Assembly: GCF_964355755.1 (NCBI RefSeq)
Contig: NC_092670.1
Coordinates: 1,079,001-1,143,000 of the forward strand
Origin: Antedon mediterranea
Taxonomy: Eukaryota; Echinodermata; Crinoidea; Comatulida; Antedonidae
Length of the DNA: 64,000 nucleotides
Direction: 5' to 3'
Position numbers and translations under genes: made by a program. The notes beneath the pieces were generated by a model. That model was not told the DNA's origin. It did not search any database and saw only the letters and a program-made list of their open reading frames with translations. Shown piece by piece: positions 1-56,510 of the stretch (positions within the stretch are counted from its first letter, which is position 1; each line of letters starts with the position of its first letter).

Positions 1-196
1 ACTGTACGATAATATACTGGAGTAATTTTAATTTCTAAGCTAAAACACCAGATAATAAGTTTGTATTTTAATTATATACAGTTATAAAAATGAAAGAATG
101 TTTAAAATAATGATTAATACAAGTATTACTAATAATAATATCAACAAATTCCATTCTATTTATCTCTAGTGTTTTATATCTACAGTATGATGTTAC

Positions 197-1417
197 CTCA
201 TTGTTATCAAGTCGCAGTTCTCTCAGCGCTTGAAGTTCTCCAAATCTTTCAGGCAGCTTTGTTAAATGATTTTGCGAAAATAAGCACTTTCTTAAATTGT
301 GTAAATTAACAAAACTATCTGGTATTTCACAAATCATGTTCTGACACAAGTCAACATCTTGCAAATTACAGAGGCACCCGAAATCTTTTGGTAAGGAAAA
401 CAACCTGTTTTCATCAAGGTGTAGCTCTTTTAAAGACTTAAGATTACCAAAGAGTTCTGGAAGCTTTGGAATCCAGTTACCATTCTGAAAGCCACGCCTC
501 TCTAATTCTCCAATAACACTACCTAAATGTACGTACTCCAAATTGACAAGACAACCAAATGAGGATGGAAGATCTGTTATAGAGTTGCCAGCAAAGTCAA
601 ATCTTTTCAATTTTACGCTAGTCTCTCCAAAGGTGTCAGCTAGAGGGCTCCCTTGTAAACAGTTGTCTCGCATCGTAAAATGAAGTAACCCTGGAAGCTT
701 TGCAAACCAAGCTGGCAAGATACATATTCGATTGGAATCAGCATGGAGTCTTTCAAGAATAGGTGCAGACTTAAAAGTATCTGGTAATATACTAATTTGA
801 TTATCAGAAATATCAATACATTTTAAATTTGTTAGATTTCCAAAATCTTTTGGTAAGGACTTTATTTTATTGTTAGAAATGTTTAGTATTGTTAAAAAGT
901 TCAAATTGCTAAGACTATCTGGTATACTCTCAAGTTTGTTGAAGCAAGCCTCTAAGATTTCCAGATTCTTAACACGACCAATGTCTGCAGGCAGCGCTTT
1001 TAAAGCATTCTCATCTAAAACCAGTTTCTTTAAAGACTTTAGACAGCACACTGCAGAACTTAGTTCAATAAGATGATTGCCAATAAGATGAAGATCTTCA
1101 AGACACAACAGGTTACCTATAGAGTCTGGAAGTGTTTTTAATTTGTTCTCATTTGCGTGTAGAGTTTTTAGTCGTGTGAACTTCTTGATACTATCTGGTA
1201 AATGTTCAAGAAGGTTTCCAGATACCAAAAGGTCTTCTATATGTTCATGTTCATCAAAATCAATTTCCAAGTCAGTCAATTCTTTAAATTCAAGATCTAA
1301 CCTTGTGATTTTTGAATTATTATAACCATTTGTTTTGGTCAACATGTCAATCTTAACATTGGACACCGCAGTGCTGGCTCTTTTAGAGCAACCAATGGCG
1401 TCATTCATTCTGGACAT
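197..1417 (-). CDS. Leucine-rich-repeat protein, first coding exon (partial gene)
   Basis: An open exon of 407 codons starts at ATG 1417-1415 and ends at 197, followed on the minus strand by a donor (GAG|GTAACA) at phase 0, so the gene continues beyond the left edge. After ~35 ordinary residues (no signal peptide) it is a chain of about 14 leucine-rich repeats of ~23 residues with the pattern LxxLxLxxNxLxxLPxxFGxL, for example LPDSIGNL, LPKDFGNL and LPERFGEL. The regular LP..F/I spacing is that of intracellular SHOC2/Erbin/PIRL-type LRR proteins, usually protein-protein scaffolds. One stretch around 480-540 is irregular, with a longer insert between repeats. The frame stays open 43 codons past the donor to a stop at 68, but that tail has no LRR character. 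I cannot assign an orthologue. It is divergently arranged with the gene starting at 2508. Confidence 0.88.
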
Positions 1418-2507
1418 CAGAAAAGTGCACTGCTACAGTAGTTGTTGTGGTTGCCAATTGTCAATTTCACTCTCTACCATTCACTCACTTCATTTCTGCA
1501 AAAGCAAATACATAACTAGTACTACTAGTATTCAATTATTATTAAATTATGGCCAATTTTAACAATTTCATTGTTTGCTCATTATTTCTGTTTACCGCTG
1601 TGTCCAAGCAAGATGCCGGTGTATCCAACATACCAACTTTATATTATTAAAATAGACCTCGCGCCGCTAACCCTTTATTTTAGGATAGGGCTATAGGTGA
1701 CTACTACCTAGCTAGCCCTGTAACTGGACATCTCTATCTATCCAGGGAGTTGTATTATTATTTTACAACTCTCTGATCTATCTAGCGTACTAACTAACTA
1801 GGCCTAGGCTAGTAGTAGTAGTAGTAGGCGCTAGGCCTCTACTCCTCCTACTGGAGGCCTACCGTATACTGTAATATAGTAATACTATTAAATTAGGACT
1901 ACTCTCCTACTACTATGTAGGTAGGCCTGGGTATGTAGGGTGGACTAACTCTGCTCGAATAACAAGAATAATTCGGTGACTATATACAAACATCATAAAT
2001 AAATAAATATTCTATTTTTACCAAACAACCGGCATCAAAATACCACAACAACACCACACACACACACACCAACCATGGAGGTATAAAACATGCACCAACC
2101 GACCACATGGGCGGCGCCCTGCGACTTTTGTTAAGATTCAATTCTCGCATTAAATAAAACTTTTTTTCCACACGTTCACCAACTTTCCAACAGTAGGCCT
2201 ATCTCCGTCATGTTTCAATATTTATATTGAGCACTCACAAGACTGTGCTTTATTGTTGCTAATTATGTATTATTACAGGACATACCGTAGTTGTCATTCA
2301 TAACATAGATAAGAACAGGATTCCGACAAATCTGTCTTTATCATTAATTTATAAACAAACAAGTTACTTATCTCGTTCTGACAACCTTTGGGCTGAAATA
2401 TTGATTATAAGTGCATTAACTTATTTGCTAAAGTAGTACCAACTGAAAACACTTGCTAGGCCGAATAATTTCGACGATAAATATTACTGCTACAAATTTT
2501 CAGAATT
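1418..2507. other. Intergenic region between divergent genes (probable shared promoter)
   Basis: No convincing coding sequence. The region separates the LRR gene (minus) from the Hedgehog-like gene (plus) and probably carries both promoters. At 1670-1940 there is a dense cluster of palindromic aggcctag/taggccta words mixed with tagtag runs. A short CA repeat lies near 2053-2068. The open frame at 1980-2171 looks accidental. Confidence 0.55.
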
Positions 2508-5500
2508 ATGGCAAGGGACAGAGGATACTTCTTGCTTTTAGTGATTGTGTGTTCCTTTTGGAAAACAAATTCAGGTATTTATCAGCAAACAAGCATGTAG
2601 GCCTACACGAATAAAATTAATCAGTATCAAATGAATGATTAGGCCTATGTGAGTTGAATGAGGAATGCAATGCATTGAACTATTGACTGTTCTATTGAAC
2701 GAGGCGGAAAACAGTCATTCTTTCTACTCATGCAATGTTCTCTCCATTCACACAAACATAAACGTCATTTTAATAATGCACAGCAAGGAAGTTTTTCGAT
2801 TTTTATATATAGGAAGACATACAGTAACAATGTCAAATGCAGTGGTGGCGCCAGCGGGGGGGGGGGGGGGCTACGGGGGCTCTAGCCCCCTCGTCGGGGA
2901 GCCTAGCCCCCCCGTCGGGGAACACGGGTACTTTTTGTCGGGGAATATAATATACAGTAAAAAACGTTCGCGTTCACTTCATATAGCTTCAGCGTCTAGA
3001 AAACCACGACGTTCCATTGACCGTGAGAGTACGTCAGAGGGCTAATATGCACGTTTATGCATTCATTATTTCCAGCGATCTAACTTACTACTAAACATTA
3101 GCTAGGTATCCCTTTGTACGAATCGTTCAACGTTGGGTCGAGACGCGTGATATCAAGTTTCATCCAGGGACCAAAATGTGTAATGTAGTTATTTTCCAGG
3201 CGAAGTTTACCGACGGTTACCGAAGGGAACACGTGTACTTTTTGTCGGGGAATATAATATACAGTAAAAAGCGTTCGCGTTCACTTCGTAGCTAGCTCCA
3301 GCGCCTAGAAAACCGCGACGTTTCATTGACCGTGAGAGTACGTCAGAGTGATATTATGCACTTTATATGCATTCATTATTGCCAGCGATCTAACTTACTA
3401 CTAAACAATAGCTAGGTACGCACTTGTCTGGCGGTATCCCTTTGTACGAATCGTTCAACGTTGGGTCGAGACGCGTGATATCATGTTCCATCCAGGGACC
3501 AAAATGTGTACTGTAGTTATTTTCCAGGCGAAGTTTGCCGACGGTTACGTCGTGTACTGCGTCGACGTACGCTACACTACAGCAAAAACGAATTATGTTA
3601 ATTGTTCGCATGTTCACCAATTTTTTAATTTACAAGTAACCTTCTGTACCGTGGGGCACCTAAAATAAATTTTTCATCCATTACTAAACAAAAAACATGC
3701 CATTTTCGCTTAGCCAACATCTTATTATAGCTATAGTTATTACATTTTCAATATCCTGTATGTCATGAATTTCTCACCACTCGGAAATCCAGATGGTACG
3801 CATGCATACACCTGGGAGGAATAAACTTATTTCCCCGACTGAAAAAGGTCTACGCTTGCGTTTTTTAAGCCTCTAGGCCTGATGTTTCCAAAGTATAAAA
3901 TGCAATTTTTTGAAGACCTGCAGCTCTAGTTTTAAACATTTTCTTAGTTCAGCCCCAACAATAAAGCTGGTCATATTTCGAAGAACAAGAAGTACATTTT
4001 CTGGGACCTAACATCTCTATTTTTCAAACATTTCTTAGCTCAGTCACAACCATGATAGGGATTTATATATATTTTTTCATTTTTTGAAGTATAATAAGTC
4101 CAATTTCCGGGACCTCCAACTCTATTTTTCTAAATTTTCTTTGAACTTTTGTTTTTTAAATTGAAAAATATTGATTGAAACAGTCATCGCGCATCTTTTT
4201 TTGCACGCAGTATTTTATTTATGCATTATAAAAAATGGAAAAAATGGCTACCCTAAATCTGATTAAAAAGACCTCAAATGACGCTAGAACGCGTTGCTTC
4301 GGGGGGCTTCGCCCCCTGGACCCCCACCGGGGGCCCTTGGCGGCTCCTTGGCCCCCAGCCTAGTGATGCTCGCTTCGCTCGCATATAGCCCCCTCGTCGG
4401 GGAATGTAGCCCCCGGGTCGGGAAGATCCTGGCGCCACCCCTGGTCAAATGTTTAAACGTCAAGAAGGTATATATTATATCCTTAGTAAGGACCAGCTGT
4501 GCTTGGGAGATTCCCCCTTTCCATTACATTGTTTTGTAATGATTATTTATGTATGTTTATGTTTTTGTGAATGGAAATAAAGAAACAAACAAACTGTATT
4601 CTAAATGGACACTTTTCTGTGAATGTATGTTTTAATACTATACTGCCAACCTCACAGGGGACACTCTTATTTATCTGTGAATGTATGTTCTAATACTATA
4701 CTGCCAACCTCACAGGGGACACTCTTATTTATCTGTGAATGTATGTTTTAATACTATACTGCCAACCTCACAGGGGACACTCTTATTTATAAGAGGTACT
4801 TTGTGGGTCCTGAACGCGTCTCCTTTGTTATAGGAGGCGAGTTCTACGTCTGTAACTCCACTTACTATTCATTTATAGGAGCAGGCGTTGCATTTCCAAG
4901 CGGTATTGTATTTGAGCCTGTTAACCCTTCTGACGTCACGGAAGAAGACGCACTCTATTACGCTGACTCGAAGAGTACAGGCTCGGAGCTTTTTCTGACG
5001 TCACAATACGAATCACAAAAGTTGACCCTAAGTCTTAAGGTTAAAGATTTTGTAGCACCAGGCAGTCTTTACTTCAGGTCACATCCGACTTTGTTTGAAT
5101 GTCTTCAGAAAGTGAATACTAATGTTTCAGAGACAGGGAGGGTAAGTATCTTAGATAATTCATTTTGTGTAACTGCTTGTCATTATTCGCATTCATATTT
5201 GATTTTGACATTTTTATTAAAGTTAAATAGTCAAAACTTTATTTTACCCGATGTTCTAAGAGGATATACTTACTACAAGAGATATTAGGCCTATTAGCAA
5301 GACATACCTGCTAGTTTTGTAAATCTTCTTTCGCAAACTTGGTTAGGAACCATTTTAAGAGTTTGAAGTGACGTGATACTGACGACACAATCCTATTTGC
5401 ACAGATTACGATAGTGAATGGCTACAATCCTGATGGAAGGACCTTAGAAAGAAACGAAAAAACCCTTTACTTGGCATCAGGTGCCGGTATTGACATCAAG

Positions 5501-8500
5501 GTAGAAGCGATTACTGGATATACTACATCCACACATGACCTCGCAGATGTTGTTATTCAGCAATGTTTTCCCATTTTCCAGGTAAGCTTTTTATCTCTTC
5601 TCTGGACTTTTAGCTTCTACGTTCTTTGCTTTCTCTTTCATGTCGTTCTGGATTTACTTATTTCATTCTTCTTCTTTTGTCTCACCTCATCCTTCGTTAT
5701 ACCATTTTCCTCTTTTTCTTTCTACTTCTCTCTCAATTTTCGTTCTAATGCTTTAAAATAAATATATTTATTGATGTAGGCCTAATAATAATAATGTTTG
5801 TGAATAGAAAATAAACAGAGACATGGGACTTGTAGTAATGGATGACCGCTTACATGTTCATATCAGAGGATCTGAAGATGGCGAACCGTACTACAGCACT
5901 CAAGGCGGCTCGATGACGGATAATGAATTTAAAGATCATGTCTTGAACGTTATCGACAAAACCTATGGTGAGTGCTACTGTGGACACTCCATCCGCATTT
6001 ACCCCAATATGTTAAAGCTACAGAGGGTTCGACTCCAATCTTTACCCCATAGAGGAGGACGTGATGACATTTTTGACATCGGCTAATGCTGCTGTGTATG
6101 TTTTCTAAAGAATATATACAATGTACATATTTTAATAAACGTTCTAAAATGCTAATGTGTATTTTGCTTAGATCCCGTTCATTTTCCTTCAATGTGTTCT
6201 GTGAACCCATTTACATCCGGAGAAACATTTCCAAAAACTGCAACATCAGCAGAAGAGGCCGTTGGGAAAGTAGATCATCCAATAACTAGGAATGATATTG
6301 AAGACTTTGAAAAGTACAGTAATTTACTTAATTACTTCATTAATTGTGTCATTTTAAATAATATAGGTTACTTATATGGATCATTTTCCGAATCGTATAA
6401 CTCCTAGTCTACTTAGTAACTTTACTAACTGGTCTACACTGGCAAACGGCGTACAGCTTTTGACAAACGGCAGGAGTTTGCCTGTGAGTTTGTAAATAAA
6501 TTGGCTTTAGTTATCCATGAAATGTAAACGACACTAGCAAACTCTGAGTTTGACAAGTTTTCCAAAATTTGCTATTCTACAATTACTGAACATTTTTGCG
6601 TATGGTTTGTAAAATCAGCGAATTAAACGACAATGTTTATAGTCATGTGACGAATGCCTCCAGTAAAGCCTGTTTTACACTAGAGCAAACTTTTACTAAA
6701 ACGTTTTGTTCAAAACTGCGAGTCTGCTCAGGGTGTCACGAAAGCTCAGACCACGAAAGCTCAGACCCCCTAAGGGTTCTAGGACACCTACCCCCTGGAC
6801 AGTTACCCCCCGGATGTTTACCACCCGGACAACTACCCCCTTAGGACAACTACCCCCCGGACAACTACCTCCTTAGGACAACTACCCCCTTAGGATAACA
6901 ACCCCCCGGACAACTACCCCCCGGACAACCACCCCCTTAGGACAACTACCCCCTTAGGACAACTACCCCCCGGTCAACTACCCCCCGGTCAACTACCCCC
7001 CGGTCAACTACCCCCCCCCCCCCCAATCTAAAAGTAGACAAATATATAGGACCGGTTTCTGTAAAAATGAAATCATCTGTTTTTAACGGGTGTTTCGAAA
7101 CTAGAGACCCGAGACCAGAGACCTGACACGAGACCAAATACGAAAAGGGAGACCTATATTTGGGTCGGTTCTAGGACACCTACCCCCTGGACAGTTACCC
7201 CCCGGATGTTTACCACCCGGACAACTACCCCCTTAGGACAACTACCCCCTTAGGACAACTACCCCCCGGACAACTACCCCCTGGACAACTACCCCCTTAG
7301 GACAACTACCCCCTTAGGATAACAACCCCCCGGACAACTACCCCCCGGACAACCGCCCCCTTAGGACAACTACCCTCTTAGGACAACTACCCCCCGGTCA
7401 ACTACCCCCCGGTCAACTACCCCCCCCCCCCCAATCTAAAAGTAGACAAATATATAGGACCGGTTTCTGTAAAAATGAAATCATCTGTTTTTAACGGGTG
7501 TTTCGAAACTAGAGACCCGAGACCAGAGACCTGACACGAGACCAAATACGAAAAGGGAGACCTATATTTGGGTCTCCCTTTTCGTATATTAGGGTCTCCC
7601 TTTTCGTATAGTGTGGTCTCTTTCTTCGTATAGTGGGGTCTCCCTTTTCTTATAGTGGGTCTCCCTTTTCGTATATTTGGGTCTCCCATTTCGTATATTT
7701 GGGTCTCCCTTTTCGTATATTTGGTCTCCCTTTTCGTATATTTAGGTCTCCCTTTTCGTATATTAGGGTCTCCCTTTTCGTATAGTGGGGTCTCCCTTTT
7801 CGTATAGTGGGGTCTCCCTTTTCGTACGTGGGTCTCCCTTTTCGTATATTTAGGTCTCCCTTTTCGTATTGGGTCTCGGGTCTCATGGTCTCTGGTCTCG
7901 GGTCTCTAGTTTCGAAACACCCGTTTTTAACCGATTATTCTGTTTAACAGCACGCTAGGCCCTAGATGTGCTAGATTTAAAGTACCGTACTTATTGAAAA
8001 AAACGGCCTGGGCTGTTTATTGTTTAGGTGGTTTTTAGGTGGACATTTATTGGAAGAAAGTTGTTTATTCAATGGGAGGGGGTATAATCTAATGGAAATA
8101 GACGCCGATTATTCCATATGATGTGTCATGGGAGTGACATGGTCACCGTTTATTTGAGGGGAATTTATTTAAAGATCGCCGTTTATTCGGTGAGTGAACA
8201 TTGAGGTCAAATATCAAAAGTGATATTATTCTTCAAGTGTACAAAAATACAAATGACAAATTTGAGACAAAAATTAATTCTTTTAAGACCAGTGGTTATC
8301 GAAGCATTGTCCTGACGCAAAAATTATTATTATTATTAGCGAACCCAGTCTTTACAGTAAATACAGGGAGTACTATATTCTCTGGGGGTAATTGTCAAGG
8401 GTAAATTGTTCCTAGGGGTAATTGTCCGGGGGTAGTTGTCCAGGGGTTAGTTGTCCTACGGAGGTAGTTGTCCTAAAAGATTATTTGCCCTCGGAGTATT

Positions 8501-11500
8501 GTCCAGGAAGTAGTTGTCCTACGGGGAGTATTGTGTCAGAGGTAGTTGTCCGCGGGGTAATTACCCGGGGAGGAGGGGGTAATTGTCCGGGGGGTAATTG
8601 TCCGGGGGGTAATTGTCCGGGGGGTAATTGTTCCTAGGGGGTAATTGTCCGGGGGGTAGTTGTCCAGGGGGTAGTTGTCCTAAGGGGGTAGTTGTCCTAA
8701 GGGGTAGTTGTCCGGGGGGTATTTGTCCGGGGGGTAGTTGTCCTAAAGGGGTAGTTGTCCTAAGGGGTAGTGGTCCAGGTGGTGGTTGTCCGGGGGGTAG
8801 TTTTCCGGGGGGTAAATGTCCAGGGGGTGAATATCCGGATACGCCCCTAAGACCTAAGATCACGAAAGCTAAGACCCAACACCTAAGATTACAAATATTT
8901 ATCTTTCGCACCTGCCTTCTATTTTAACTCCCAACATTTATTCTGAATACCACACCTTAGAATTGGCACTTTCATGAAAAAGAATCACATAAAAAGTAAC
9001 AAATACATTTTTAAATTGATGATTTTACAGACGTTTTTCTCGCACACAAAATGACTAGCCTACAGTACAGTAGGCCTACCCCATGGGCCATGTTCAATGT
9101 TTTTGTTTCTATGGAACGTCAAAAGAGCAAAAATTATATAGAGGGCTGAAAACTCTGTGGAGTCCATCTACAGTGTGGATGGAACAATGTAAAATTAAAA
9201 TTGTAATGATAATAGTATAATCATGCAAGTACGAAGAAATAAATACTGGCAAATAAATTTTAATTTAAAAATCATGATAAGTTTTTTTGTTTCGTTTTCT
9301 TTCTGTTTTTATACTTGTACTATTATTGTTGCTCTTTTGGCGCTCCATAGAAACAAAAACATTGAGCATGGGGAGCTCGAGGAGTTACATTGTCATTGCA
9401 GTATACAAAGAAACACATCTGTAAAATCATCAATTTAATTTTTATTAATTTATTTATTTGTTATTATGTGTTTCTCCTTCTGAAAGTACTTATAAGTCCT
9501 AATTTTAAAGTGTGGTGTTCAGGATAAAGTTAGTCAACAAATTTGGAGTCAAAATACAAGAAAGGCAGGTGCGTAAGAAAAACATCCTCTGAAGCAACAC
9601 AATGGGGTAAATATATACCAACAAACAACCCGTCAAGTTTGTTTGTTGTAAAGAAAAAATATACATTTACTCAACGGGCGAAAATAATGTGAGTTTATCT
9701 ATGTTTTGCGGTAGTATTAAATTATATTTATGGTAATAAATGAAACCTACTGTGTTTAAAATTATGTATGGATAAACAAGTATTGTTTTTAAGCTGTAGT
9801 ATATCTTAGTATTTGTAATCTTAGGTGTTGGGTCTTAGCTTTCGTGATCTTAGGTCTTAGGGGGTCTGAGCTTTCGTGGTCTGAGCTTTCGTGACACCCA
9901 GTCTGCTCATGCCCGCGATTAATAATGTTTTATTTTGTCTAGATTAATTCAGTATCCAGCTCGACTGATCGCCTTTGAAAACTCTGAACGTTCCTCAAGC
10001 TGGTGTGGAGACCAATCTCGGGGCTGTGTTGATTGTAGGAACACTATTTATGGATCAGCATTATCATCAAGGTATTGATGTTAATATTGATAATACATTT
10101 ATGACTGTATCAAGAGCCACTTTTTCTTCGACCAAAAGTGCTCTCAGTGTGCTTTAAAGTTAATAAGTGATTCTTTCAAATTCACCAAAGATTGTACTTG
10201 TGCTCACTTTAAGTTGTTTAATGATAGGCCTACAGTACTTATAAAAAGCTTTACTTTATGAATACAGATGCTCTGATCGGACAATGACTCCTAGATTAAT
10301 GAGCGTGTTACAGAAAATGCAAAAGATGACGTCAAATGCATATATTGGAGGTAATGAAATAATATAAATTCAGAATCATTGATTGATAAACATATTAATG
10401 TTTATGATGAAATAAAAACATCTCGCCACGGTAAAAGTAAAGGGTCACAAGTAATTTTTGTATAATTTGTTGATTCTAACTGTTGAGAGAAAACCTTTGA
10501 CTCAATTAAATTTGTAAAATTATCTTTTCAATAGAGAAACTTGTTATAATTGAAGCTTGGGATGAAGTTTACGCAGATGCGCCAGTAACTAGTGGCGATA
10601 ATCCAGAGGGCTCTCTGTACTATGAAGGTCGAGCAGCAAAGGTCACTCTACCTGTCGCAGACGATGGAAAACTCGGTCACGTGGCATCATTCGCACAGTG
10701 CAGTGGCGCGGATTTCGTTAAACATAATGGTTTGTTAAAAATATCAATGAGATGGTATAAAAGCCGTGGCTTGTGATAGGTCAAGTAATCACTTAGCCAT
10801 GTTTTATACTATTTGCGTTTATAAAGCGCGCCTCCATTCTGTCCGTGTAGGCCTACTGATTTCCCATTAAAAATGGGATGTAGGGCCTACTCTACTTTAA
10901 AGGTGTTTGAAGTGAATTTAATTATCTTAATTAATCACAGGTGATCATGTTTTCATTGCGGTACAGAAGCAGGCCGGATATGTCGCTCAGAAAGTTCAGT
11001 TTCCTAGCAATCAATTTATTGTCGTAGCTCCGCCCACACACCAGTTATCGCAACATGAACTGCCAATCAAATTTCAGGCCTATGGTGATAAAATGCCATT
11101 ATTTGACAGTGATCACCAGGTAACTAATTAGACCTTTGTATTCTATAAATCAAGCAATGCCACACATCAATCAATCAAGAAATTTCAACCAATCAAATGA
11201 TATAGATTTGGTGATTGAATAAAAGTTTGTCGCTTTAGTAGTCGATTCAATGGTAGTGAACAAAAATAACTGTCGATCAGTACAGTAAATGGACTGAATG
11301 ACTGACTTCCTGACTGAACTGTCCAACGACGTTTACTATCTGGAAGTTTATCATGAAAGTTACAAAAAATTATGGATAAAAAACTTCATTAAAAAAAAAA
11401 CTTATAAATTAAAACATTCATTGCATTTACAGAAGTTTAAAAATAGAATATTATTAAATATTACATGTATGAAGAAAGTTCTAACATACGCGTTACTTAT

Positions 11501-14448
11501 TAGATGGATAAGTTAGTGGCACAGGACTCATCGTTGTCGAACTTTGTTTCCATGGAATCACGATATCTGCGTTTGAATCCGCTGATTGCAAGGTGTTACC
11601 AGGCATTGATCACGAAGGAGAACAAATGGAGAGAAGGTACGTAATAATCGAATAACTTACTATAACCTGATGAATATAGAAACTTTATAAATTCTCTTTT
11701 GTTTTACAGGTAAACAAGAGGTAAACATTGACGTTCTCTGGTCTTACCTAACTAATATTCAGCGCAATGATTTGATGGAGAATGACGATCCGCGCTACGA
11801 CACGCCTGCTCTTGGACGCGCAATGCAGGTCATGTACGATCCATCATCCGTAGTAAATGACCAGGAAGTCTTCACACCAAGACGTCTAGTGAACCTTATA
11901 GCACACCAGTGTGGACCACTATTTCAAAAACCTGGATTCCAGATAGGCATTGGTAAGTAGGATATGGTAGAAACAATTAGCATATACATTGATGTTTGAT
12001 TGCCTTTTAAAAAATAGACATTAAAGAAAACATTAGTCTCTATTTGACACAAGTTTGAAAATGTTATTTTGTTTGCTTAGGGCTGTATAACGGTTCGGTA
12101 TTTGTAGACCTGAGAAGCGAATTCAAAGTCTGGGTTGAAGAACAACAACTACTGAACGGTGAAACATTGGAGGAGTTCACACAAGACGTGAAAGATCGAA
12201 CTAAAGCAGCGTTAGGTAAAGATTTACAACATTATTATGCGTATTGTAAACGTCATTTCTGTAATAAGGGGAGATTTAGAAATCACGACGGAAACTTTAC
12301 GTCTTACAATTTACTTAATTTGCTTTGAATTGCGCATGCCTAATTTATATGTATAACTTTTCTTTGGTTGTGTTTGTGAAAGTACAAAAAGTATGATGAA
12401 AAGTGTATGCAAGAACACTATAAATATAACCGCCACCTATGTCTAGGTGTTCAAGTTAACACATTTTAAATTTTCAAATTAGTAGTTTTGGATTTATGAA
12501 AAAATTTAAATAAAACTAGTTTGTTTGAGCGAATGACATGTAGTGTGAAACAAACTTGTTTCTACTTGTTTTAGAAAGTCGTGTAATAGACCCAGACGAC
12601 AAGACGACTGTGTGCAAATCTTCAGTCAAGCCAGAAAAACAGTCCATTGACTTTGAGCATACATTCCCAGAATCTTGGTCAGCTTTCACTGGCTCCAGCA
12701 GTTGCAAGTCAACTCTAGATACAGAGTTTTGCAAAACATCTGCGGGACATCGAAAAGAGGAGGTACTTAAAAGCAAACCAAGGACGGCTAATGTGTTTCT
12801 TTACCTTCTTGGTGTAAAAATGTTTATACAGGAATCATATATGAAACTAAATTTAAGCACTACTGTAGTTTAAATTATTGTACGTACTCTATAAATAAAA
12901 AATAGGTTAACTCATGCATTATTTCGTTTAGGTTGAAAGATTGTGGACAGAAATTACACGAAAATATCTTTACCGCAATAGGCAAGATGTGAGAAATGCT
13001 CTGGAAGGTTGTTTTGGCGGCTGCAGTACTTGCGAAGAAGGTAAAACAAAACAAATTAAAAATGTAATTACATTTTGTTGGTCTGGAACAAGATGTTGCC
13101 AACTGAAAGTTGCTAGATTCTAGTACAAATTGCTTAGGTAGCCTATCTCAATGGCTGTTGCTGCTTAATGCTACGTAATTTAATTGTTTGAAGGTTTGCA
13201 TGGCGAAATCAATATGTAAGTACACCACGTATAATAGTTCTAAAAAGTGTTGAGTTTCTTGACGTTTCGAACAATATACTTCGATGGTCCTCATGCTACG
13301 TAGTTCTTATCATACTGACTATGCTCCAAAATGAACATTTCTTTCGTTTGCTTGTCTATAGGCGTTTATTATGATGCCAAAATTGAAAGCTGTAACAACC
13401 TAATTCACTGGATACCATTTTCATTTCTCGAGGAACAAGACAGATCAAACTTCTATGCTCGGGAAAACCAAGAAATGAAAGCATATGCTTGCAAAGAACA
13501 TTGTATCGATACATCTCCAATATTCTCATTAGTCGGTAAGAATCTTCTTGTTTCACGGCAGCTTATCTAGGATTATTACCTAGTGGATCCAGGATGTCGA
13601 AAACAAGCATCCACATAATAACAAAGTTCCTAGAATGTAATGTAAAACATTTCTTTTGCATTAAGAAAGATCTAAAGTTTTTTTTTAAATTGTTATTTAC
13701 CAAATTATAACCACAGAAATTCTGATTTGATTATGGGAAAAAACTTGGACATCTATTGAACATCAACTGACTAGGCCCAACACGTTTTCACCATTTAAAT
13801 AAACACGATACGATATCTAACTGTTATTATTCTATCAATTATTGTTGAAGCTCCATCGCTAGAAGCAGTGTTCCGACCTGACCCAAAGGAGAGTGCCACA
13901 CATGATCTTTACGCTGCAAATGAAAACCCACTGCCCGTCAATGATTTGCTGTACAGACTTTATGCACTTCATTCCAGAGGAACCGTTAAATTCTGGGTCA
14001 AAGACGACGAGGAACTTTTGACTCTAAAAATTCCACTACAGGTAGGCAATGCTAAAATAAAATTCGCAGATCAAAAGATCTTTGAATATGTGATCGGCTA
14101 ATTTTGATGTTGATTACATTCGGCATTGTTTCAAAGAAATCACTTTAACGTTTGCAATTGTTATTATCTTTGTAATTTTTGTACATATTTCAATTAGTAA
14201 CATCACAAAAACAGCGATCGTACGATTATCATCTACATGAATTGTTTTTTCTTAAATTATGATTTCAGGTGTTAATGGTTTACAATAAAGATATTACTGA
14301 TATCGAGATAAATGTTGGAGCGAAAGTCAACGTAAATAGCGTAATTGGAGTAATGAAGAGTCTGATTATGGATTGGTCAAAGTCAAGCTGTGCAGATTAT
14401 TCTAGAGAATATATGCCGCCATTTGTTGTCAATGCCATTTCTGCCTAA
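2508..14448 (+). CDS. Secreted protein with a Hedgehog N-terminal-like domain, 17 exons, ~930 aa
   Basis: Exons: 2508-2574, 4834-5141, 5405-5581, 5808-5967, 6172-6313, 9943-10071, 10268-10350, 10535-10729, 10941-11119, 11504-11636, 11710-11952, 12081-12215, 12575-12762, 12932-13040, 13362-13535, 13851-14041, 14269-14448. Each has AG/GT borders and all phases agree, giving 2793 nt with one stop. Residues 1-22 are a signal peptide (MARDRGYFLLLVIVCSF). Residues ~327-435 resemble the Hedgehog signalling domain: CSDRTMTPRL, then VIIEAWDE, then GSLYYEGRAAKVTL (compare Hedgehog DRLMTQRC, VTEGWDE, SLHYEGRAVDIT). The zinc ligands are replaced (His by Tyr, Asp by Lys, and the second His by Phe in HVFIAV), so metal binding is unlikely. 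No Hint/autoprocessing domain is visible. Residues beyond 440 are cysteine-containing and unrecognised. The start of exon 4 is the weakest junction (poor pyrimidine tract). Confidence 0.82.
2840..4443. mobile_element. Non-autonomous hAT-type DNA transposon in intron 1 of the Hedgehog-like gene
   Basis: The ends are 15-bp inverted repeats, cagtggtggcgccag on the left and ctggcgccacccctg on the right (one mismatch). They are bounded by an exact 8-bp duplication gtcaaatg at 2832-2839 and 4444-4451, the hAT signature. Subterminal regions are rich in alternating C and G runs (cccccgtcgggga). No transposase frame was found. Internally, ~2925-3110 is repeated at ~3227-3480, so the element has grown by a tandem duplication. 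Its right subterminal block (gggggcccttggcgg, then gctcgcttcgctcgc) recurs at ~55770-55830 in the hAT copy near the right end, so the two are related. Confidence 0.87.
4614..4793. repeat. Tandem repeat, ~60-bp unit, 3 copies
   Basis: Three near-identical copies containing actgccaacctcacagggg lie just upstream of exon 2 of the Hedgehog-like gene. The repeat stops about 40 bp before the acceptor. Confidence 0.85.
6774..7575. repeat. C-run minisatellite block duplicated in tandem inside the foldback element
   Basis: A ~395-bp block starting ggttctaggacacctacccc occurs twice, at ~6774-7167 and ~7169-7575. Each copy is built from ~16-20-bp units such as ccggacaactacccc and ccttaggacaactacccc. Each ends in a poly-C tract and a ~110-bp unique stretch (agtagacaaatatataggac and following). 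The translated frames across it are low-complexity artefacts. Confidence 0.85.
7556..7870. repeat. Minisatellite of ggtctcccttttcgtata units
   Basis: About 13 units of ~20-24 bp, differing mainly in the spacer between tcgtata and ggtctccc. The flanking sequence carries gagacc/ggtctc words in the opposite orientation (gaaactagagacccgagacc on the left, ggtctcgggtctctagtttc on the right). The array therefore sits in the loop of an inverted repeat. Confidence 0.85.
8380..8840. repeat. G-run minisatellite, inverted relative to the C-run block
   Basis: Units such as ggggggtaattgtcc and ctaaggggtagttgtcc are the reverse complement of the units at 6774-7435. The two arrays flank the 7556-7870 array as arms of a long imperfect hairpin. 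Closely spaced runs of five or six G on the plus strand (8575-8660) could form G-quadruplexes. Confidence 0.83.
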
Positions 14449-15228: not shown

Positions 15229-18200
15229 ATGTGTTTTCTAAGAAACTTAGGATGTATACTTACACTTTTGCTAATTTGCCAAAATACAGGTAAGTGTCTG
15301 TATATCTAACAATGTTAAGAGTCATACATTTGAAGAAGATGGATTTGTATACCAGTGACTCAATTACATTTAGACATTTTATAGGTATTTTGGTTTCCTT
15401 CAACAAGAGTCTTTATGATTTGATTTTATGTTCTGACGTCTCTCGGGAAATCAACCCAACAAAATATTTGAAAAAGAAAATGCAGAGAAACTGCCATTGG
15501 TCCGATTGGTTCCATTTTCCATTAAGATGAAACTCTTTGTCCTAATATATCCGAATAAAACAAATGCAAATTTGAATTTGTGTGTTAGTTTGGTAAATGC
15601 CTTTTACCTAAGTTTTAAATAAAACATAATTGGTTAAAGTTATTTTGCACAACATTTCAGGGGTATGTTATTGTCGTGAATGGAACAACTACAGTACCAG
15701 TTGGTATAAGATTTACGATAACAATCAGGTTGATTGGGTAACTGCGCACAGTACATGTCATAGAGAAGGAGGATCATTAGCTTCAGTGACGTCATCTGGT
15801 GAAAATCAATTTGTTGGTTCATTAGGAAATGTTCATAATCTCTGGATCGGATTAAATGACTGGGACCATGAAGGGACGTTCCAGTGGACAAATGGCGACC
15901 CTATAGTAAACTATACAAGTACGTATTATATTTTAACCAATATTTTTAGTCGCATGGAAGCGACTCTATAGTTCACTATGTCGGTCGGTCTGTCGGTCTG
16001 TCGGTCTGTCGGTCTGTTGGTCCGGTATCACTATGCGTTTTATCGCTTTCTGACCTTATCTTGATATCAGTTTAATCTAGCTAAGTCAATTTTTTACAGT
16101 ATATTCCTTATGGCCAGGAATCGATGTGGTTATGTTTTCACGGTGCGCAATAAAAAATTACGCGGTCTACGCACGATTTAACGAAATCACGTTTGTAATC
16201 ATATCTTCACAACCATGAATCACAATTAAATAAAATTTGGTACTCATAAATTTCAGGGCATAAATCATCATATGGCAATACAATTACGTGCGTAGCGCAT
16301 GTAACGCATGCGTACGCGCGCTTAAAATTTACAAAATTTATTTTCGACGAAATAAGAGTACGTTTCAGGCAATTTTAAGCGTTTATAAAATTGCCATGAG
16401 TGCGCAGATTTTTGCGCGCACACTGCGCGTTAAATGTTGTTGCGCACTCTTTTTGCCCGATTTCTGTTTTTTTGACTTACTTTTCAACTCGAAATTACGT
16501 TATACGAGCACGTCAAAAGTGACAGGCTACGCACGTGTAAATTAAAAAAATATAACTGTTTTTAAACATTTCAACATTTTTAAACATGTTCAGTAATTTC
16601 GGTCAGTTGGTAGGTTGGTCGGTTGGTCGGTAAACACTAAGCACGCGACTGCAGCCACCTATATGGCCTTGTTATTTTAAAGGTGACGGGTATGTGGTAT
16701 CCTAGATCGTAAGTATTCTCTTTGTATTTGTTTCTATTTCATAGATTGGGAAAACAAGAGTAACCATAATACGGACGGAGAGGATTGCACCGTAATGCTA
16801 AGTACTGGTGACAACAAATGGTCAATGAAAAATTGCAGCGACAACTACCATTTCGTTTGTGAAAAAGGTACCATTGTTATTAAAAGATATACTGAAAGTT
16901 AATTAATTAATTTAAAACGATAAAGATGAAGAAATCTGTGAGAATGAGAAAAAGTCGCCCCAACCGAGACTCGAACTCGGACCGCCATGCTTGATATGCA
17001 GATGTACTAACCATTAGACCACTGGGGCTTTCATGGTATAGTTCAAACTCGATTGGATAGCGACTCTTTAACATTCTCGGCGTGGTACGGCGGAACAGCA
17101 CTAGTCCTCAGTTGTATGCACGCACACCAGAGATCAAATTGATACGCCCTAATCTTTCAGTATTTTTATTCACAAGGCGGGATCTCCGAAGAGATACTTT
17201 TATATATATAAACACATCAGGCAAAGAACATTAATTCTAAACCGCCCGCGGTGATATACTGAAATTTAATTAATTAATTTGAAACGATAAAGATGAGGAA
17301 ATCTATGAGAATGAGAAAAAGTCGCCCCAACCGAGACACGAACTCGGACCGCCTGCTTGAAATGCAGATGTCCTAACCATTAGACCACTGGGGCTTTCAT
17401 GGTATTGTTCAAACTCGATTGGATAGCGACGCTTTAACATTCTCGGCGTGGTACGGCGGATCGGAACAGCATTAAGGCCGGTGCACACCGAACGCGAAGC
17501 CGCGAAGCGTCATGCGTCACGCGTCATTCGACGGATCGCTTTGAAAGTTGAATTGTCATGCGTCTATTAGTTTTTCTTGTCGGTTCCCACTAAACGCGTC
17601 ACGATGTGCTGATTCGTCGCGATTGCTAGGCCTAGGAGATAGTGGGTTGGCCAATAATACAATGCTACATTTAAAATAATCAGAGAAGATGACTCTGAAG
17701 TATTTCCTATGTAAGTTTAACCAGAGAAGAGTTAAATTAAAATGTAATTTAACTCTTCCCTGGTTACACCAATCACAGTGTTTGGTTTTGGTGGGAAAAT
17801 GTTATCCTTTTCCAAAGCCTGAAATGTGCATGATTGTATGTATATATCACAAGAACAGAAGAAGATGTATCCAATATCAATACAGTTACAAGAATTAAAG
17901 CATTTATTGCATGTTGATTACACGTACATATGTGATCTGCTGACTGTATTTATTAGTGGTGTTACAAATATCTTTCAACAGAGGTTATTATAACCATATA
18001 AAACATTTCATATAAACACGAACTGGGAATCTTCCTGGGTTTGTTACTTTCAAATATAAACTATAGGCCTAATATTAATGTAAAGTTTTCACATTCATTT
18101 TCTAATTATTATTAAATATTATATTATTCATGACAAAACATACAGTTTTTTTCTCATTTGATTAAATGTAATAAATATCCCAAACTCATATTTACACTGT

Positions 18201-30111: not shown

Positions 30112-33100
30112 ATGACATTGTGTAACGAACGGATCGTCAAACTCAAATGTATAAGTGCATTTTTTATACTTTATATAAATACAGGTAAGGATTAATATGT
30201 TTTAACAAATAAAAAGTAGGTCTACCTTTTCTGACGTTTAATTTGATAAAAATAGAATAAGACTGTTCGTAATTAATTTGAACACGATACGCGGCATCGT
30301 TAAAAACAATCGCCAGAAGTAGAACTAGCCATAAATTCACCGAACCAGCCGGCTTTTGTTTTGTTAAAGATATAGGCTAAAAAATAGCCTAAAAAATGTT
30401 TACATTTTAATCTCACATAATATCTATTCACTTTGACCAAAAATTAGATAGAACAAATAAGTTTACTTGAAAAACTGTAATAATTTAATTTAAACTCTTT
30501 ATTTTGTCTCTTTTATAAGTGAAATCGTTATTTTATCGTTTTTTTCTTCAAATATGAATAACTTTATAAGAACTACAAAATAGCCTATTCAAAGTCTGAT
30601 TTGTTTAATCATCATTTTTCATGTTTTGCGGGGACAATGTATCTTTTAAAATGGTCTATTTCACGTTTTTAACTCAATTCTTTCGTTCAAGAGAATCAAA
30701 ATGTTTATTCTTTTTGCTTAAAACATTTTTATTTTAGGAGTGCTGTGCGCAACATGGAAACGCTATAAATATAATGCGTATGCAGCATTTGAAAGCCGTG
30801 TTTCTTGGACTACCGCGCTTCAAAGATGTGAGGATGAAGGGGGATCGTTAGCTTCTATAACCTCATCTGGTGAAAATAGTTTCGTTTTTTCGTTGGATTT
30901 CGATAGTTCTTATCTCTGGGTTGGATTGAATGACAGAGGTAATGAAGGTAGTTTGCGGTGGACAAATGGAGCATCTGCAAGTTATACAGGTAAGCGATGT
31001 AGGACTATTTTAGTTTTGGCATCCAACAAACTTGTAAAAAGAAAAGAAAATGTAGTTACTTAAGAGTATTTGAGCATTAAGCGCTATGTTAGAACGATGT
31101 TTTTATGCACAGCCTATAGAGATAAAAACATACACTAACAGGCTGAGATAATTATGTATTATTTTATTACGAATTATTATCATTATTGTATTATTGAATC
31201 GTTATAATCAATAACACACACGTCGTCGTCACATTGTGATCGGTTGCGCGCGCAGTGTCTGTCACCCCCAGGGCAATCTCATGACACCTACCTACTCCTG
31301 AAAGGAAACCCATATTTAACCTGTTTGTAACATATAAGTATATTATTTTTTTAATAATTAGCCTACCCTTTTCTAATATGATCGCAATACGATATTAAAA
31401 CTTTGTTACATTTAACGGCGTGATGTTTGCACATTAGTGAATTATAAATGTGTACAGATTTGCACATTAACTTGAGAGTTCCATGTTTGAACAAGTAGGC
31501 CTATAGTTGTTTGCACACTTGTGATTTTTGCACATTTCACGACTCAACAGGCCTACCTTTTATTTTCGGAAAACTTATAAGAGTACAGTATGTACATTTT
31601 ATATAGGCCTATGTTTCCTTTTGTTAGATTGGAATTCACTTTACACTAGTTATAATTCAAACTCAAGAGATTGCTTAGCACTGAGAGATCGGACCTTTAA
31701 AACTGGCGCTTTTGGCGTTTACGTGTACACTAATGTCAAATATTGGTCCATGTTTGACTGTAGCAACGATTATTACTACGCGTGTGAAAAAGGTAAATGT
31801 TTGTCTTATGGATGGTATACATCCAAATTCAATTTGTATCGTATTTCTATAACGTATATGTTTATAATGTTATGGTTAGAACTTCAACCTAGATTGCAAG
31901 ATCACCTTGCAGTGGATGGCTTGTATGAATCGGATTTTAATTCTATAGCAACTTAGCTATGTACACCAAGAATGAACTGCTATACTAGGCTTAATAAAAT
32001 CAACATCATCTTAATATCAAGCTTATTTAAAGCGTCGGTGGTACTGGTGACCTGAAGTTTCTTCACAAAGTTTAGGAAAATCAACCAAAGTAAAAAGACA
32101 GAAACCTGTCCTTACAATGTTCTTCCTTCTGAGTTTAAACATTCTATTATTTTCATTAATTTTAAATAGAAGCAACCAGATTATAAAATAATGCCGCTTA
32201 TGTTTAGTGGAACCTCGAGTAATATTTTTCAAAAGAGTGTTATTTAACAAAGCTCATTCAGTGAGTTTCACTGTTAGAAGTATTTTAACAATAGCTATAG
32301 TAGTCTAGTAATTATGACCATGTATAAACATTTCAGATTACGACGAATGTGCCAACAATGCGGATGAATGTGAAAATGGGGCTACTTGTGTGAACAGGGA
32401 TAATGGCTACGACTGCACATGCGCTGATGGATTCACCGGTGACCATTGCGACAGCGGTAAGTATTCACATTTGCACAATCATCAACACGGTACATTGAGA
32501 TCTGTAAACCAAAATATAATCACAATTATATTATGGGTTTGAGATGGATGGATGGCTACGGATTGTTATGGTTAGGATATTGATGGAACAAGTTGGACAT
32601 TTCATTATTATATTTATTATTACAGATATCAATGAATGCATCTCAGCAAATACTTGCAAAAATGGAGCCACTTGTTCCAACACATTTGGCGATTACAACT
32701 GCGCATGCGTTGATGGTTTCATGGGTAAACGATGTGGTTCAGGTAAAGTATAAAAACAGAGTACATATGTGATATATCTCAAGAAATGTAATGTATTCAC
32801 CAGTTTTAATGTAATATTACCTTGAAATTATCGATTTTTTATAGATATTAATGAATGCACAAATTCCGATTGTCAGAATGGCGCCACCTGCGTCAACACA
32901 CCTGGAAGCTATACGTGCACGTGTGCTGATGGTTTCAGTGGTCAACGATGTCAATCAGGTAGTCATGGTTCACACCAGAACATTTTTTATTATTTTAATG
33001 TAAAATATAAACATTATAAAATGACTCAATCGATTGTAAATGTGATTTCATTTGTTTTGTCTTTTATGAGGTCTTCCAACTTTTATTCTTCTCAAATAAT

Positions 33101-36100
33101 ATGTAACAGTAGTTTACAAAAGTAATATTGCACATTCAAATGAAAGGAAGACTTTTATATTTTTAATAACATTAATCGTTATGATTACTTTTGTCTCTCC
33201 ATTAAATTCATTTTTAAATAATAACGTTAATACAGATTTCTTTTCATATGCGCAAAAAAGGCCTTTTTTCCCAAATTTATAACATTAATGAATTAAATGT
33301 TTAATCAATATTCAATAACATTAATGAATATTCAATCAAATTAGTGAATATTTAAAATTATCATATTTTACATATGTGTTTCAATAAAAAGCCTCAAGAA
33401 CAATGACTTTGTGAATTAATAAACATTTCTATGGAATCTAATAATGCAAATTGTATGAAATCCGATTAAAATATACTAAACAATATTGCTAATGTGAATT
33501 TTGATTGAATTGATAACCCGTGCTCTTGTGGTATTTCAACTCTTGTATATTATAATTTCAGATATCAATGAATGCAACTCTGCAAATACTTGTCAAAATG
33601 GAGCCACTTGTTCCAACACACTTGGTGATTACAACTGCGCATGCGTTGATGGTTTCATGGGTAAACAATGTGAATCAGGTAACCTTATGTCGATTTATTT
33701 TTACCAAAACTGTGTCTCATAACTACAATTTAAAAGATATTGTCCCCCAGAAAAATATAAACGTGTTTGTTGAATATGCCATTTCAATGCCACATAATAT
33801 TTATTAATTTTCACGTCAGAGCATGTTAAGAGTAAAAAAAAAACGAACTACAGATTAATAAGATACATAAATAAAATATGCTCCTTAATGTTTGAAATTC
33901 AAGATATCTCATTATTTAGTAAAGGACAACGTCCATACAAAAAATAATAATAGATATAGTTATAACAGTTTAATGTTTGAAATCTTTTATTAGATATTAA
34001 TGAATGCACAGATCCAATGAAAGAATGTCTGAATGACGCCACCTGCGTCAACACACCTGGAGATTACACGTGCACGTGCGCTGAGGGTTTCATTGGACAA
34101 CGATGTGAATTAGGTAAGGTATAGTTCACACTAAAATACAATAATATAATATTAATGAAAATACAAAAATATAGATAGTAAATGTAAACTTATAATTTCC
34201 CAGGTAAATTATGTTTTAATTATACTTTTGCTTTTTAGATGTTAATGAATGCATGAATTCATTGGATGATTGTCAGAATGGCGCCACCTGCGTCAACACA
34301 CATGGAAACTACACGTGCACGTGCGCTGAGGGTTTCATTGGTCATCTATGTGAATCAGGTAGGTATGGTTCACAACAGAGCTTAGTTTTATGTTTTCAAT
34401 TTGAATTCCCGGCAAAAATCTTCTTTCTTTTATAGGCCTACTTACATTCGAACACGATAGGATTGTTAGGCTAATTAAATTATAATATGCTGCCTATTTG
34501 AAAAAAAGCTAATTATTACATGTGTTTTGCAGACATCAATGAATGTGACAACTCAACAGACACTTGTAAAAATGAGGCCATTTGTTCCAACACTTTTGGT
34601 GATTACAACTGCGCATGCGTAGAGGGATTCACTGGGAAACGATGCGAATTAGGTAAGATCTGGTTCACTCCAGAGCATATTTTAGAATCAAGAACTAAAA
34701 ACAAGAAATGTAAAGATACTTAAAAATGCCTTCTTGCAATGTTTGAAATTCAAAATATTTAATTTTTTTTTTAGATGTTAATGAATGTAACAATTCAAAT
34801 GATGAATGTCAGAATAACGCCACGTGCGTCAACACACCTGGCGATTACAACTGCACGTGTGTTGAGGGTTTCACTGGGCAACGATGTGAATCCGGTAAGG
34901 TATACTAAGGGCCTGTTTCTATTGAAAAATAAAAAAAGAACGGTTTTTTGGAAACCGGTTTCGGCTGTTGTTTATAAATAAAGATCGCGTTGCAGCTCAA
35001 ATTTTACTCCAATAAAACCGGTTCCGTCCATGTGCGTTCGTTATGAATGACGTCATTATATACACCACAATGCAGTTCGTTAGGCGGAAGCGCGATTTGA
35101 TCGAGGTCATGTTTACTTTTTTTCGCATAGCGCGATCCCCAAGAAATAGCATCCATTTCATCATAGAAGGGGGAATTATTACCTGAAACTTTATTGTGGT
35201 CCTTGGTTAAAGTATAGGTACGTCGCACCCTCTGATATTGTCAAGTTGAACTCGTCTATTTTTCACACGCTTTACAATATTCTTAAAAACATGTAGGCCT
35301 ATAATACTGTACGCGAGTCTTTCTTCCGACTCCCGACAAGTCTTCTTTCCTTCACATATTTTTTACGAACCTCGTAATGGCATCGGTCAACATTTTTTAG
35401 TTAAATAAAATACTCACTATCTAGAGAAATAAAAATGACTTAGGCCTAGGTCCTATCGCGCGAGTTTGACTGCGAGTTGACCGCAATCATCCCAGTGCAG
35501 CAGCAGACTGCAGAGTTCAGTTTTTGGGGTCAAATTGAGACCGCGATTGTGTTGCAGCTAAAAATTGCTCCGCGGAAACCGGTTTCAGAACGGTTCTCTG
35601 CGATCGAGACCGCAATCAATTGGGGTTTTTGAAACCGTTTTTAAGATCGGTTCTTTTTTGTGGTTTTTTGTGGGGACCCATTTCTGCTGGCAAGAAAAAA
35701 CGGTTCTTGAAAAGAACGGTATTCAAAACCGTATTCTCTGCTCTATAGAAACAGGCCCTAACTTCCATAACCCGTTTTCAGTCCGGCATTGAAAACAAAA
35801 AGTAGAGTAATTGAAGTTTTATAACTCCAGGTGTAAACATATGCAAAATTGCCCTTTTAATGTATGTTAACGAGAAAATTGTCTTTGTTGATCGTTTCGG
35901 AAATTCATTGCTCGCATAAAAATATATAAGTAATATAAAATTACAATGTAGATATCTGGAAAATATAAAACAGCAAACATGAGTAAAAAAGATAGCATTA
36001 TCAAAAACATATATTATTATTGTCAAATTGGTTACATTTAATTTAATTTAAATTATAATTAAAAAGTTCAATTGTTATGTTGGAATTATTATTATTTAAA

Positions 36101-41329: not shown

Positions 41330-42211
41330 GATAGAGACAGACGGTGACCCAACTGGGTACATCAAAGCGGCTGGTTGCACTCTCTAGAGACAGACGGTGA
41401 CCAATCACAAATTATGTATTTATCATAAATTATGTATTTTTCACAAATTATCAATCAAATACAGTACACTAATGTTTAGATAATGTTTAGATAATGCTTT
41501 AGTTTATTATAAATTTATGTTTTTATATTATAATAATCATTAATATTTTATCCCGTTTCAACATTTGACAGTGGATCATGCAGGTATAATTTTTTAATAA
41601 ATTTTATACCATACTAGAGTGAATACAAGTTTTTTTGTTATTAAACTTCAAAACACTACCTTTTCTTGTTCTATATTAAAAGTAATTTCAAATGTATACC
41701 AAGTATAATATAAAGGCACAATAGGGAATAGAAAGATTAACAATTATTAAATTATGAATTAAGAGACGTTTACTATACTTTAAAATAAATTTAATGACAA
41801 AAAAGATTAACGTTTTGGAACCATCATTGAACTATTGTCAAGAACAAACGAGTAAAATTAACAACTATCCAAAATATAAAGCACCAAAGGGTGACAAGAA
41901 ATACCTAAATAATTAGTTACAAGACTGAAAAATCTAAAAGATAAGCTCCTCCTCTCGATAATTATTTAATTTTATTGAGTGATTTTGTTTGTTAAGAGAT
42001 GGTTTCAACTCTTTTATCCACAGCATTTAATTAATTAAGCAATCGAATTTATATTTTCACTTAGACAATACTTTGAAATAATTGACTGTATCAGTAGGAC
42101 TGATTTCTTAGATGTTCTCTTATGATACCTTTATTGTGTTCATTAATGCGTTGATAAAGGTGCCGACAGGTGTAGCCGACATAGCTTGCATCACACACAA
42201 CGCATTGCTGG
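41330..42211. other. 3' flank of paralogue B
   Basis: 41330-41400 holds a degraded repeat of the end of the coding sequence (ctgggtacatcaaagcggct). The rest is AT-rich with AATAAA near 41597. No gene seen. Confidence 0.55.
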
Positions 42212-42214
42212 TTA

Positions 42215-42387
42215 AGCGTGGTTCCCACTAGCGACGCAACACAAGGACGTAACGCAACGCAAGTGAATTGACCAATCACAAGCGATGGCTTATTCACTCG
42301 TGATTGCTAACTGTCTATAACTTCGCTTGTCATTGGTTAAAACGCTTGCGTTGCGTTCTTGCGTTACGTTCTAGTGGGAACCACGCT
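42215..42387. mobile_element. Palindromic Harbinger-like MITE, 173 bp
   Basis: Inverted ends agcgtggttcccactag / ctagtgggaaccacgct are flanked by TTA at 42212-42214 and 42388-42390. Related or nested copies follow at ~42734-42965 and ~42966-43145, and a diverged one at ~45057-45172. It matches the terminal block seen in the 36-bp minisatellite downstream. Confidence 0.78.
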
Positions 42388-42393
42388 TTAACA

Positions 42394-42653
42394 AGCTTGG
42401 GTTTCCTTTCTTTTGATTTTAAGATTATTATGAAATCATGCCAGTATATTAGGACGATAGGCGAAATCATGCCAGTATATTAGGACGATAGGCGAAATCA
42501 TGCCAGTATATTAGGACGATAGGCGAAATCATGCCAGTATATTAGGACGATAGGCGAAATCATGCCAGTATATTAGGACGATAGGCGAAATCATGCCAGT
42601 ATATTAGGACGATAGGCGAAATCCTAATATCAAAAGAAAGAAACCCTAAGCTT
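42394..42653. repeat. 31-bp minisatellite (6 copies) inside an inverted repeat
   Basis: Six copies of a unit containing gaaatcatgccagtatatta lie at ~42430-42618. They are bracketed by ~25-bp inverted repeats (aagcttgggtttcctttctt on the left, aagaaagaaaccctaagctt on the right). The bracket suggests a small foldback element whose centre has expanded. Confidence 0.78.
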
Positions 42654-43204
42654 GTGTTGTGTACTATCATTCCGCTTTTTCGTTACAGATTCATTTCCAT
42701 GACTCTCGTTCGCATGTGATTGGTCACATCACTTAAGCTTGGTTCCCACTAGAAACGCAACGCAACGACGTAAGCGCAACGTAAAGCGTGGTTCCACTAG
42801 CGACGCAACACAAGGACGTAACGCAACGCAAGTGAATTGACCAATCACAAGCGATGGCTTATTCGCTTGTGACTGCTAACTGTCTATAACTTCGCTTGTC
42901 ATTGGTTAAAACGCTTGCATTGCGTTTACGTCCTTGCGTTACGTTCTAGTGGGAACCAAGCTTTAAGCGTGGTTCCCACTAGAACGCGACGCAGCGACGT
43001 ATTGACGCAAAGTAATGTATTGCGTAATCACAAGTGGGAACCGACCGATTTCACGCGGGCGGGGGCAAACACAATTATTGAAGGGCATTTTGTTACGTTG
43101 CATAGGTTGCGTTACGTTGCGTCGCTCAGTGGGAATCAAGCTAAAGCGATGGATCGAACAGTAATTGTCATTGACTTGCGTTGCGTATACGACGTCCGTG
43201 CGTT

Positions 43205-44335: not shown

Positions 44336-44344
44336 AACACAATG

Positions 44345-46330: not shown

Positions 46331-56510
<10,180 letters not shown>

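Follow-up and report, generated by a model that had tools for sequence, protein, structure and literature searches.

A probable Hedglet gene in the crinoid Antedon mediterranea, encoding a complete Hedgehog N domain that has lost its zinc site

Relatives of the Hedgehog N domain (the Hedge domain) have been described from several kinds of protein, and the closest to the gene reported here were named Hedglets in 2021 by Jagers et al., who applied the term to Hedgehog relatives of mollusks, echinoderms and cephalochordates with lost catalytic residues (PMC8052667). In that paper, Hedglets are described as less conserved than Hedglings, with neither catalytic nor calcium residues conserved, and as occurring in animals that all have hh, and a derivation from Hh was suggested (PMC8052667). 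Within the literature searched, the term is found only in that paper, and a full-length description was not found. The Hedglings of choanoflagellates, sponges and cnidarians are large extracellular proteins carrying a Hint-less Hedge domain with an incomplete zinc motif (PMC6027127, PMC2362128). Shh itself has the zinc ligands H141, D148 and H183, and uses E177 (PMC6027127), while its calcium ligands are listed as E90, E91, D96, E127, D130 and D132 (PMC8052667). Drosophila Hedgehog has a working Hedge domain despite a damaged zinc site (H-X6-T, H-X-Y, and E177 changed to Val) (PMC6027127).

This study describes a gene of Antedon mediterranea that is very probably an echinoderm Hedglet, an assignment made by matching description and taxon. 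The window, meaning the whole stretch of DNA that was analysed, is 64,000 nucleotides long, and the gene occupies positions 1549-14448 of its plus strand. It was rebuilt as 17 exons, all with GT-AG splice sites and all in compatible phases, which encode 931 aa without an internal stop. The N-terminus is hydrophobic and signal-peptide-like, and the mature protein would have about 908 residues once the signal is cleaved. These results are in good agreement with a sequence-only reading of the window, which had proposed a secreted protein of ~930 residues encoded by 17 exons, and whose coordinates for exons 6-9 (9943-11119) were recovered when the gene was rebuilt. The putative exon 1, which lies 3.2 kb before exon 2, is the least certain of the 17. 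The features of the gene are as follows.

Exon 1, 1549..1618, plus strand: carries the start codon and encodes a putative signal peptide MANFNNFIVCSLFLFTAVSKQDA; open reading frame with a hydrophobic core, donor gtgtat, phase fitting exon 2
Exon 2, 4834..5141, plus strand: GT-AG, phases fit
Region D1, 5028..5897, plus strand: aa 89-215, in exons 2-4; homologous to D3, and weakly M15_3-like, including ITIVNGY, SGAGIDIKV and LHVHI
Exon 3, 5405..5581, plus strand: GT-AG, phases fit
Exon 4, 5808..5967, plus strand: GT-AG, phases fit
Exon 5, 6172..6313, plus strand: its 3' part encodes the first segment of the Hedge domain (ETFPKTATSAEEAVGKVDHPITRNDIEDFEK); the alignment with Shh and bacterial Hedgehogs spans the exon 5-6 junction
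Region D2, 6216..10987, plus strand: complete Hedge domain (Hedgehog N), aa ~254-437, in exons 5-9
Intron 5, 6314..9942, plus strand: 3.6 kb, with abundant minisatellite arrays (tandem repeats); within one gene by domain continuity
Exon 6, 9943..10071, plus strand: carries the Cys-rich insert WCGDQSRGCVDCRNTIYGSALSSR
Exon 7, 10268..10350, plus strand: CSDRTMTPRL...
Exon 8, 10535..10729, plus strand: EAWDE...SLYYEGRAAKV; scores 27.6 bits to PF01085 by itself (G000:C1:1089537-1089731)
Tyr385 (Shh H141) to Lys392 (Shh D148), 10618..10641, plus strand: two replaced zinc ligands, from alignments
Exon 9, 10941..11119, plus strand: GDHVFIAVQKQ...
Phe426 (Shh H183), 10952..10954, plus strand: third replaced zinc ligand, from alignments, unambiguous
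Exon 10, 11504..11636, plus strand: GT-AG, phases fit
Region D3, 11516..12166, plus strand: aa 486-635, in exons 10-12; homologous to D1
Exon 11, 11710..11952, plus strand: GT-AG, phases fit
Exon 12, 12081..12215, plus strand: GT-AG, phases fit
Exon 13, 12575..12762, plus strand: GT-AG, phases fit
Exon 14, 12932..13040, plus strand: GT-AG, phases fit
Exon 15, 13362..13535, plus strand: GT-AG, phases fit
Exon 16, 13851..14041, plus strand: GT-AG, phases fit
Exon 17, 14269..14448, plus strand: ends in the stop codon, with AATAAA motifs within 250 bases downstream

Since the Hedge domain crosses intron 5, the exons on either side of this intron belong to one gene. The possibility that the exons come from two separate genes, which the sequence-only reading had itself raised, is ruled out at the exon 5-6 junction, which the alignment of the Hedge domain crosses. 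The Cys-rich insert was also considered as the product of a missed splice site, and this was rejected: an alternative donor in exon 6 (AAGCTG/GTGTGG) is phase-compatible but produces a TGA stop at the junction. A leucine-rich-repeat protein gene (71-1432, minus strand) is arranged head to head with exon 1, the two starts being ~140 bases apart.

The Hedge domain of the protein was readily detected by several methods. Against the Pfam HH_signal family (PF01085), a comparison that had been suggested along with the sequence-only reading, it scored 48.6 bits where the cut-off is 22.1 (E 9.6e-13), and it matched a profile of Shh, the genome's own hh and bacterial Hedgehogs (bacHh) by hhalign with an E value of 2.2e-13, in an alignment that reaches its N-terminal half. 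The homology claimed in that reading therefore stands, while the extent does not; the domain had been placed at residues ~327-435, and actually runs from ~254 to 437, beginning in exon 5. The segment ETFPKTATSAEEAVGKVDHPITRNDIEDFEKLIQYPARLIAFENSER aligns with Shh from FIPN to IIFKDEEN, and the Smith-Waterman score against Shh was 127, a value reached by none of 500 shuffles. In a search of PDB sequences, Shh was matched at E 3.1e-7 by the domain and 2.1e-6 by the whole protein, and every significant match was a Hedgehog chain; one further row, SOX-11 (E 1.4), is a chance match. The structural motifs EAWDE, YEGRA and ITRN are kept, and there are two inserts, one of ~26 aa with four cysteines (around W306-C330, ahead of CSDRTMT) and one of 8 aa following WDE. 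Introns interrupt the domain around FEK/LIQ, SSR/CSDR, YIG/EKL and HNG/DHV. A phylogenetic tree placed it, with a very long branch (2.41 changes per column), within the set of Hedgehogs and bacterial Hedgehogs, and its grouping with the animal Hedgehogs was neither supported nor rejected (p-AU 0.253).

All three zinc ligands of this domain are replaced, as the sequence-only reading had claimed when it listed Tyr, Lys and Phe at these positions. The alignments are unambiguous in equating H141 with Tyr385 (codon 10618-10620), D148 with Lys392 (codon 10639-10641) and H183 with Phe426, and the catalytic E177 is represented by Asn421, so that the signature of M15 metallopeptidases (the H-X6-D and H-X-H zinc motif plus a catalytic Glu) is absent. 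Four of the six calcium ligands are kept (E91, D96, E127 and D130); E90 is replaced by Ser, and D132 is either lost or displaced by an insert. The same reading had called the fold metal-free, which is shown for zinc alone, where all three ligands are replaced, and which goes too far given that most calcium ligands are kept. Among the metal sites, only the zinc site is clearly gone. Judging from these residues, classic zinc binding and peptidase activity are not expected, and calcium binding would be compatible with the ligands that are kept.

Elsewhere in the genome, PF01085 matched only one other gene, a normal hh on contig 2 (G000:C2:3267255-3278500), which has all zinc ligands and E177, an intron at MTQ/RCN, and an adjoining Hint exon. 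As the zinc ligands, E177 and Hint are all retained in the animal's own hh, the loss of the zinc site is specific to the Hedglet protein. No Hint domain (PF01079) was found in the Hedglet gene, which ends with the stop codon at 14448, and matches to PF01079 in the genome were limited to hh on contig 2 and to a site at 12.93 Mb of contig 1, so the earlier claim that the protein is without a Hint domain was upheld. No paralogues were found in the genome, where the gene is single-copy, nor were relatives of the full protein found among viral contigs. Bindin is an echinoderm protein, and the presence of a bindin gene in this genome (PF02084, E 2.3e-28) assigns it to the echinoderms. The Hint match at contig 1 (G000:C1:12926715 region; positions 88-2109 of locus L023) belongs to a frame of 673 aa in which an AIG1/GIMAP-like GTPase (GKTGQGKSSTGNSIL), assigned by eye, is joined to a C-terminal Hint domain (PF01079, E 1.6e-25), an unusual and apparently intracellular fusion.

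The features of the gene correspond to those of Hedglets as they are described in PMC8052667: a Hedgehog N domain can be detected outside Hedgehog, by both PF01085 and hhalign, the catalytic zinc residues are lost (H141Y, D148K, H183F, E177N), the calcium residues are incompletely conserved (E90 and D132 being lost), and the host is an echinoderm that also has an hh with Hint. The suggestion in the sequence-only reading that this might be an undescribed extracellular protein family is not supported, given that Hedglets were named in 2021 (PMC8052667). The main text of that paper covers only a domain of ~105 residues, whereas the present gene gives the full architecture, the exons, and the pair of flanking regions D1 and D3.

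Comparison with the other known systems revealed both similarity and difference. The Hedge domain resembles that of Hedgehog (Shh and the animal's own hh) over its whole length, with 32% identity, but the protein lacks Hint, the zinc ligands and E177, has the Cys-rich and 8-aa inserts, carries its Hedge domain away from the mature N-terminus, and does not share the hh intron position. It is not a Hedgehog, since the Hint domain and the zinc site are both missing. Hedglings are alike in being large extracellular proteins that have a Hedge domain but no Hint, and in having a zinc motif that is not intact. However, they have VWA, cadherin and EGF domains, none of which was matched in the window protein (Pfam, E up to 10), and their Hedge domain is encoded by a single large exon, whereas here it is spread over exons 5-9; domain content and exon structure thus show that the gene is not a Hedgling. 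The bacHh and M15 DD-peptidases belong to the same superfamily, and the identity of the Hedge domain to bacHh reaches 35%, but bacHh are described with all zinc, calcium and catalytic residues intact (PMC6027127), and the domain in the window is without zinc ligands. Drosophila Hh is a precedent for a functional Hedge domain with an impaired zinc site, although it is a genuine Hedgehog that retains one zinc His as well as Hint, and the window protein has neither. A Hedgehog-type domain (RHYMGWAVDLTTSD, with HVH) was also seen on a contig binned as an archaeon (L032, 1704-3821). The larger protein that contains it also has Cys-rich and membrane segments, and the occurrence may be genuine or may reflect an error of binning.

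The regions on either side of the Hedge domain had been regarded as of unknown type, and D1 and D3 indeed matched nothing in Pfam, NCBIfam or PDB sequences, yet the two are homologous to each other. Their Smith-Waterman score of 66 was not attained by any of 3000 shuffles (maximum 58; Gumbel p about 6e-6), the relation being read from the local alignment, as the MAFFT alignment of the pair misplaces the middle part. One hypothesis is that the Hedge domain, together with D1 and D3, makes up a row of three degenerate Hedgehog/DD-peptidase folds, forming a multi-domain, non-enzymatic binding protein. Such an arrangement extends the preferred explanation rather than opposing it, but we regard it as rather unlikely. 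Against a Peptidase_M15_3 profile of about 30 bacterial proteins, obtained from a PF08291 search, the hhalign score of D1 (22.6) was weak, though higher than all 60 shuffles and all 228 real-protein decoys, and in the register expected for the Hedgehog/DD-peptidase fold; MAFFT also set SGAGIDIKV of D1 on GRAADLT and LHVHI on HIHVSV, and a scan with M15_3 along the protein gave raised scores at D1, D2 and D3 over a background level elsewhere. On the other hand, the weak score of D3 was equalled by 8 of the 228 decoys and is not significant, the profile of the D1 and D3 pair did not score above all shuffles, and neither region matched the Hedgehog profile by hhalign. The predicted model of D1 (pLDDT 69, pTM 0.62) came from an input alignment that included bacHh rows, so that the test is not free of bias; no M15 or Hedgehog structure was among the matches listed. 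A still bolder proposal, that Hedglets are multi-domain pseudopeptidases with only the middle domain recognisably Hedgehog, and that their ancestor was a tandem M15 protein and their origin separate from that of Hedgehog itself, is unlikely. Region D4 (aa 656-931) was considered as a further repeat and rejected, having no similarity to D1-D3 or to M15. In Flavobacteriaceae, three loci (L028, L029 and L030) were seen to encode a peptidase-like region with M15-type motifs ahead of a bacHh domain in one protein.

Shh binds matrix proteoglycans and Hedgehog-partner proteins. In the Hedglet protein, a complete but non-catalytic Hedge domain lies between the mutually related D1 and D3, and the C-terminal region that comes after them contains cysteines. 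Since the zinc-ligand positions are occupied by Tyr, Lys and Phe, an extracellular binding module is the simplest reading, perhaps stabilised by calcium through the equivalents of E91, D96, E127 and D130, and that the domain serves in this way is our best guess, held tentatively. Matrix proteoglycans or Hedgehog-partner proteins would be the likeliest candidate partners, as these are bound by Shh. The protein would not work as a zinc peptidase, nor would its zinc cleft be usable in the manner of vertebrate Hedgehogs with HHIP. In the absence of Hint, cholesterol would not be attached by the Hint route, and palmitoylation of the Hedgehog N-terminal type is unlikely, as ~230 residues of the mature protein precede the Hedge domain.

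Two further explanations would remove or change the role of this domain. Zinc binding or peptidase activity might persist through other ligands, such as His420 together with His424 (Shh H181), which are near the old cleft, or the four cysteines of the insert, but the replacement of all three ligands and E177, with bulky Tyr and Phe and a Lys in place of the ligands, makes this very improbable. The very long branch in the tree and the loss of all catalytic residues would also be seen if the Hedge domain were an unconstrained remnant in a decaying gene, a pseudogene in the making; the 17 exons are, however, free of stops and frameshifts and have canonical splice sites, EAWDE, YEGRA and ITRN are retained, and Hedglets are reported from several phyla (PMC8052667), so that decay is likewise very improbable. 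Taken as a whole, the explanation preferred here, a Hedglet with a non-catalytic Hedge domain, is considered probable, the role as an extracellular binding module being its tentative part.

Several other features were observed in the window. Exons resembling C-type-lectin and EGF domains occur on the plus strand between 15630 and 53000, seemingly in repeated sets (15630, 30722 and 46701), with EGF-like exons at 32826-37496 and near 52700 on the same strand. Long minisatellite arrays at 39388-44377 are open in several frames on both strands, one with a unit of 16 protein letters and another with SGNHALRLRFVS. A predicted tRNA-Asp (anticodon atc, unusual for Asp) and tRNA-Glu (ttc) lie close together on the minus strand, at 16956-17028 and 17323-17394.

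As far as the searched literature shows, Hedglets have been known from a short passage of a single paper, and what is new here is the full architecture, an exon structure whose introns are placed differently from those of hh, and the homologous pair D1 and D3. The suggested derivation of Hedglets from Hh (PMC8052667) is neither supported nor rejected by introns that differ from those of hh and a tree that does not tie the domain to the animal Hedgehogs. With the complete gene in hand, two questions can be put in concrete terms: does the Hedge domain function in binding without zinc, and did animals acquire domains of the Hedgehog type on more than one occasion?
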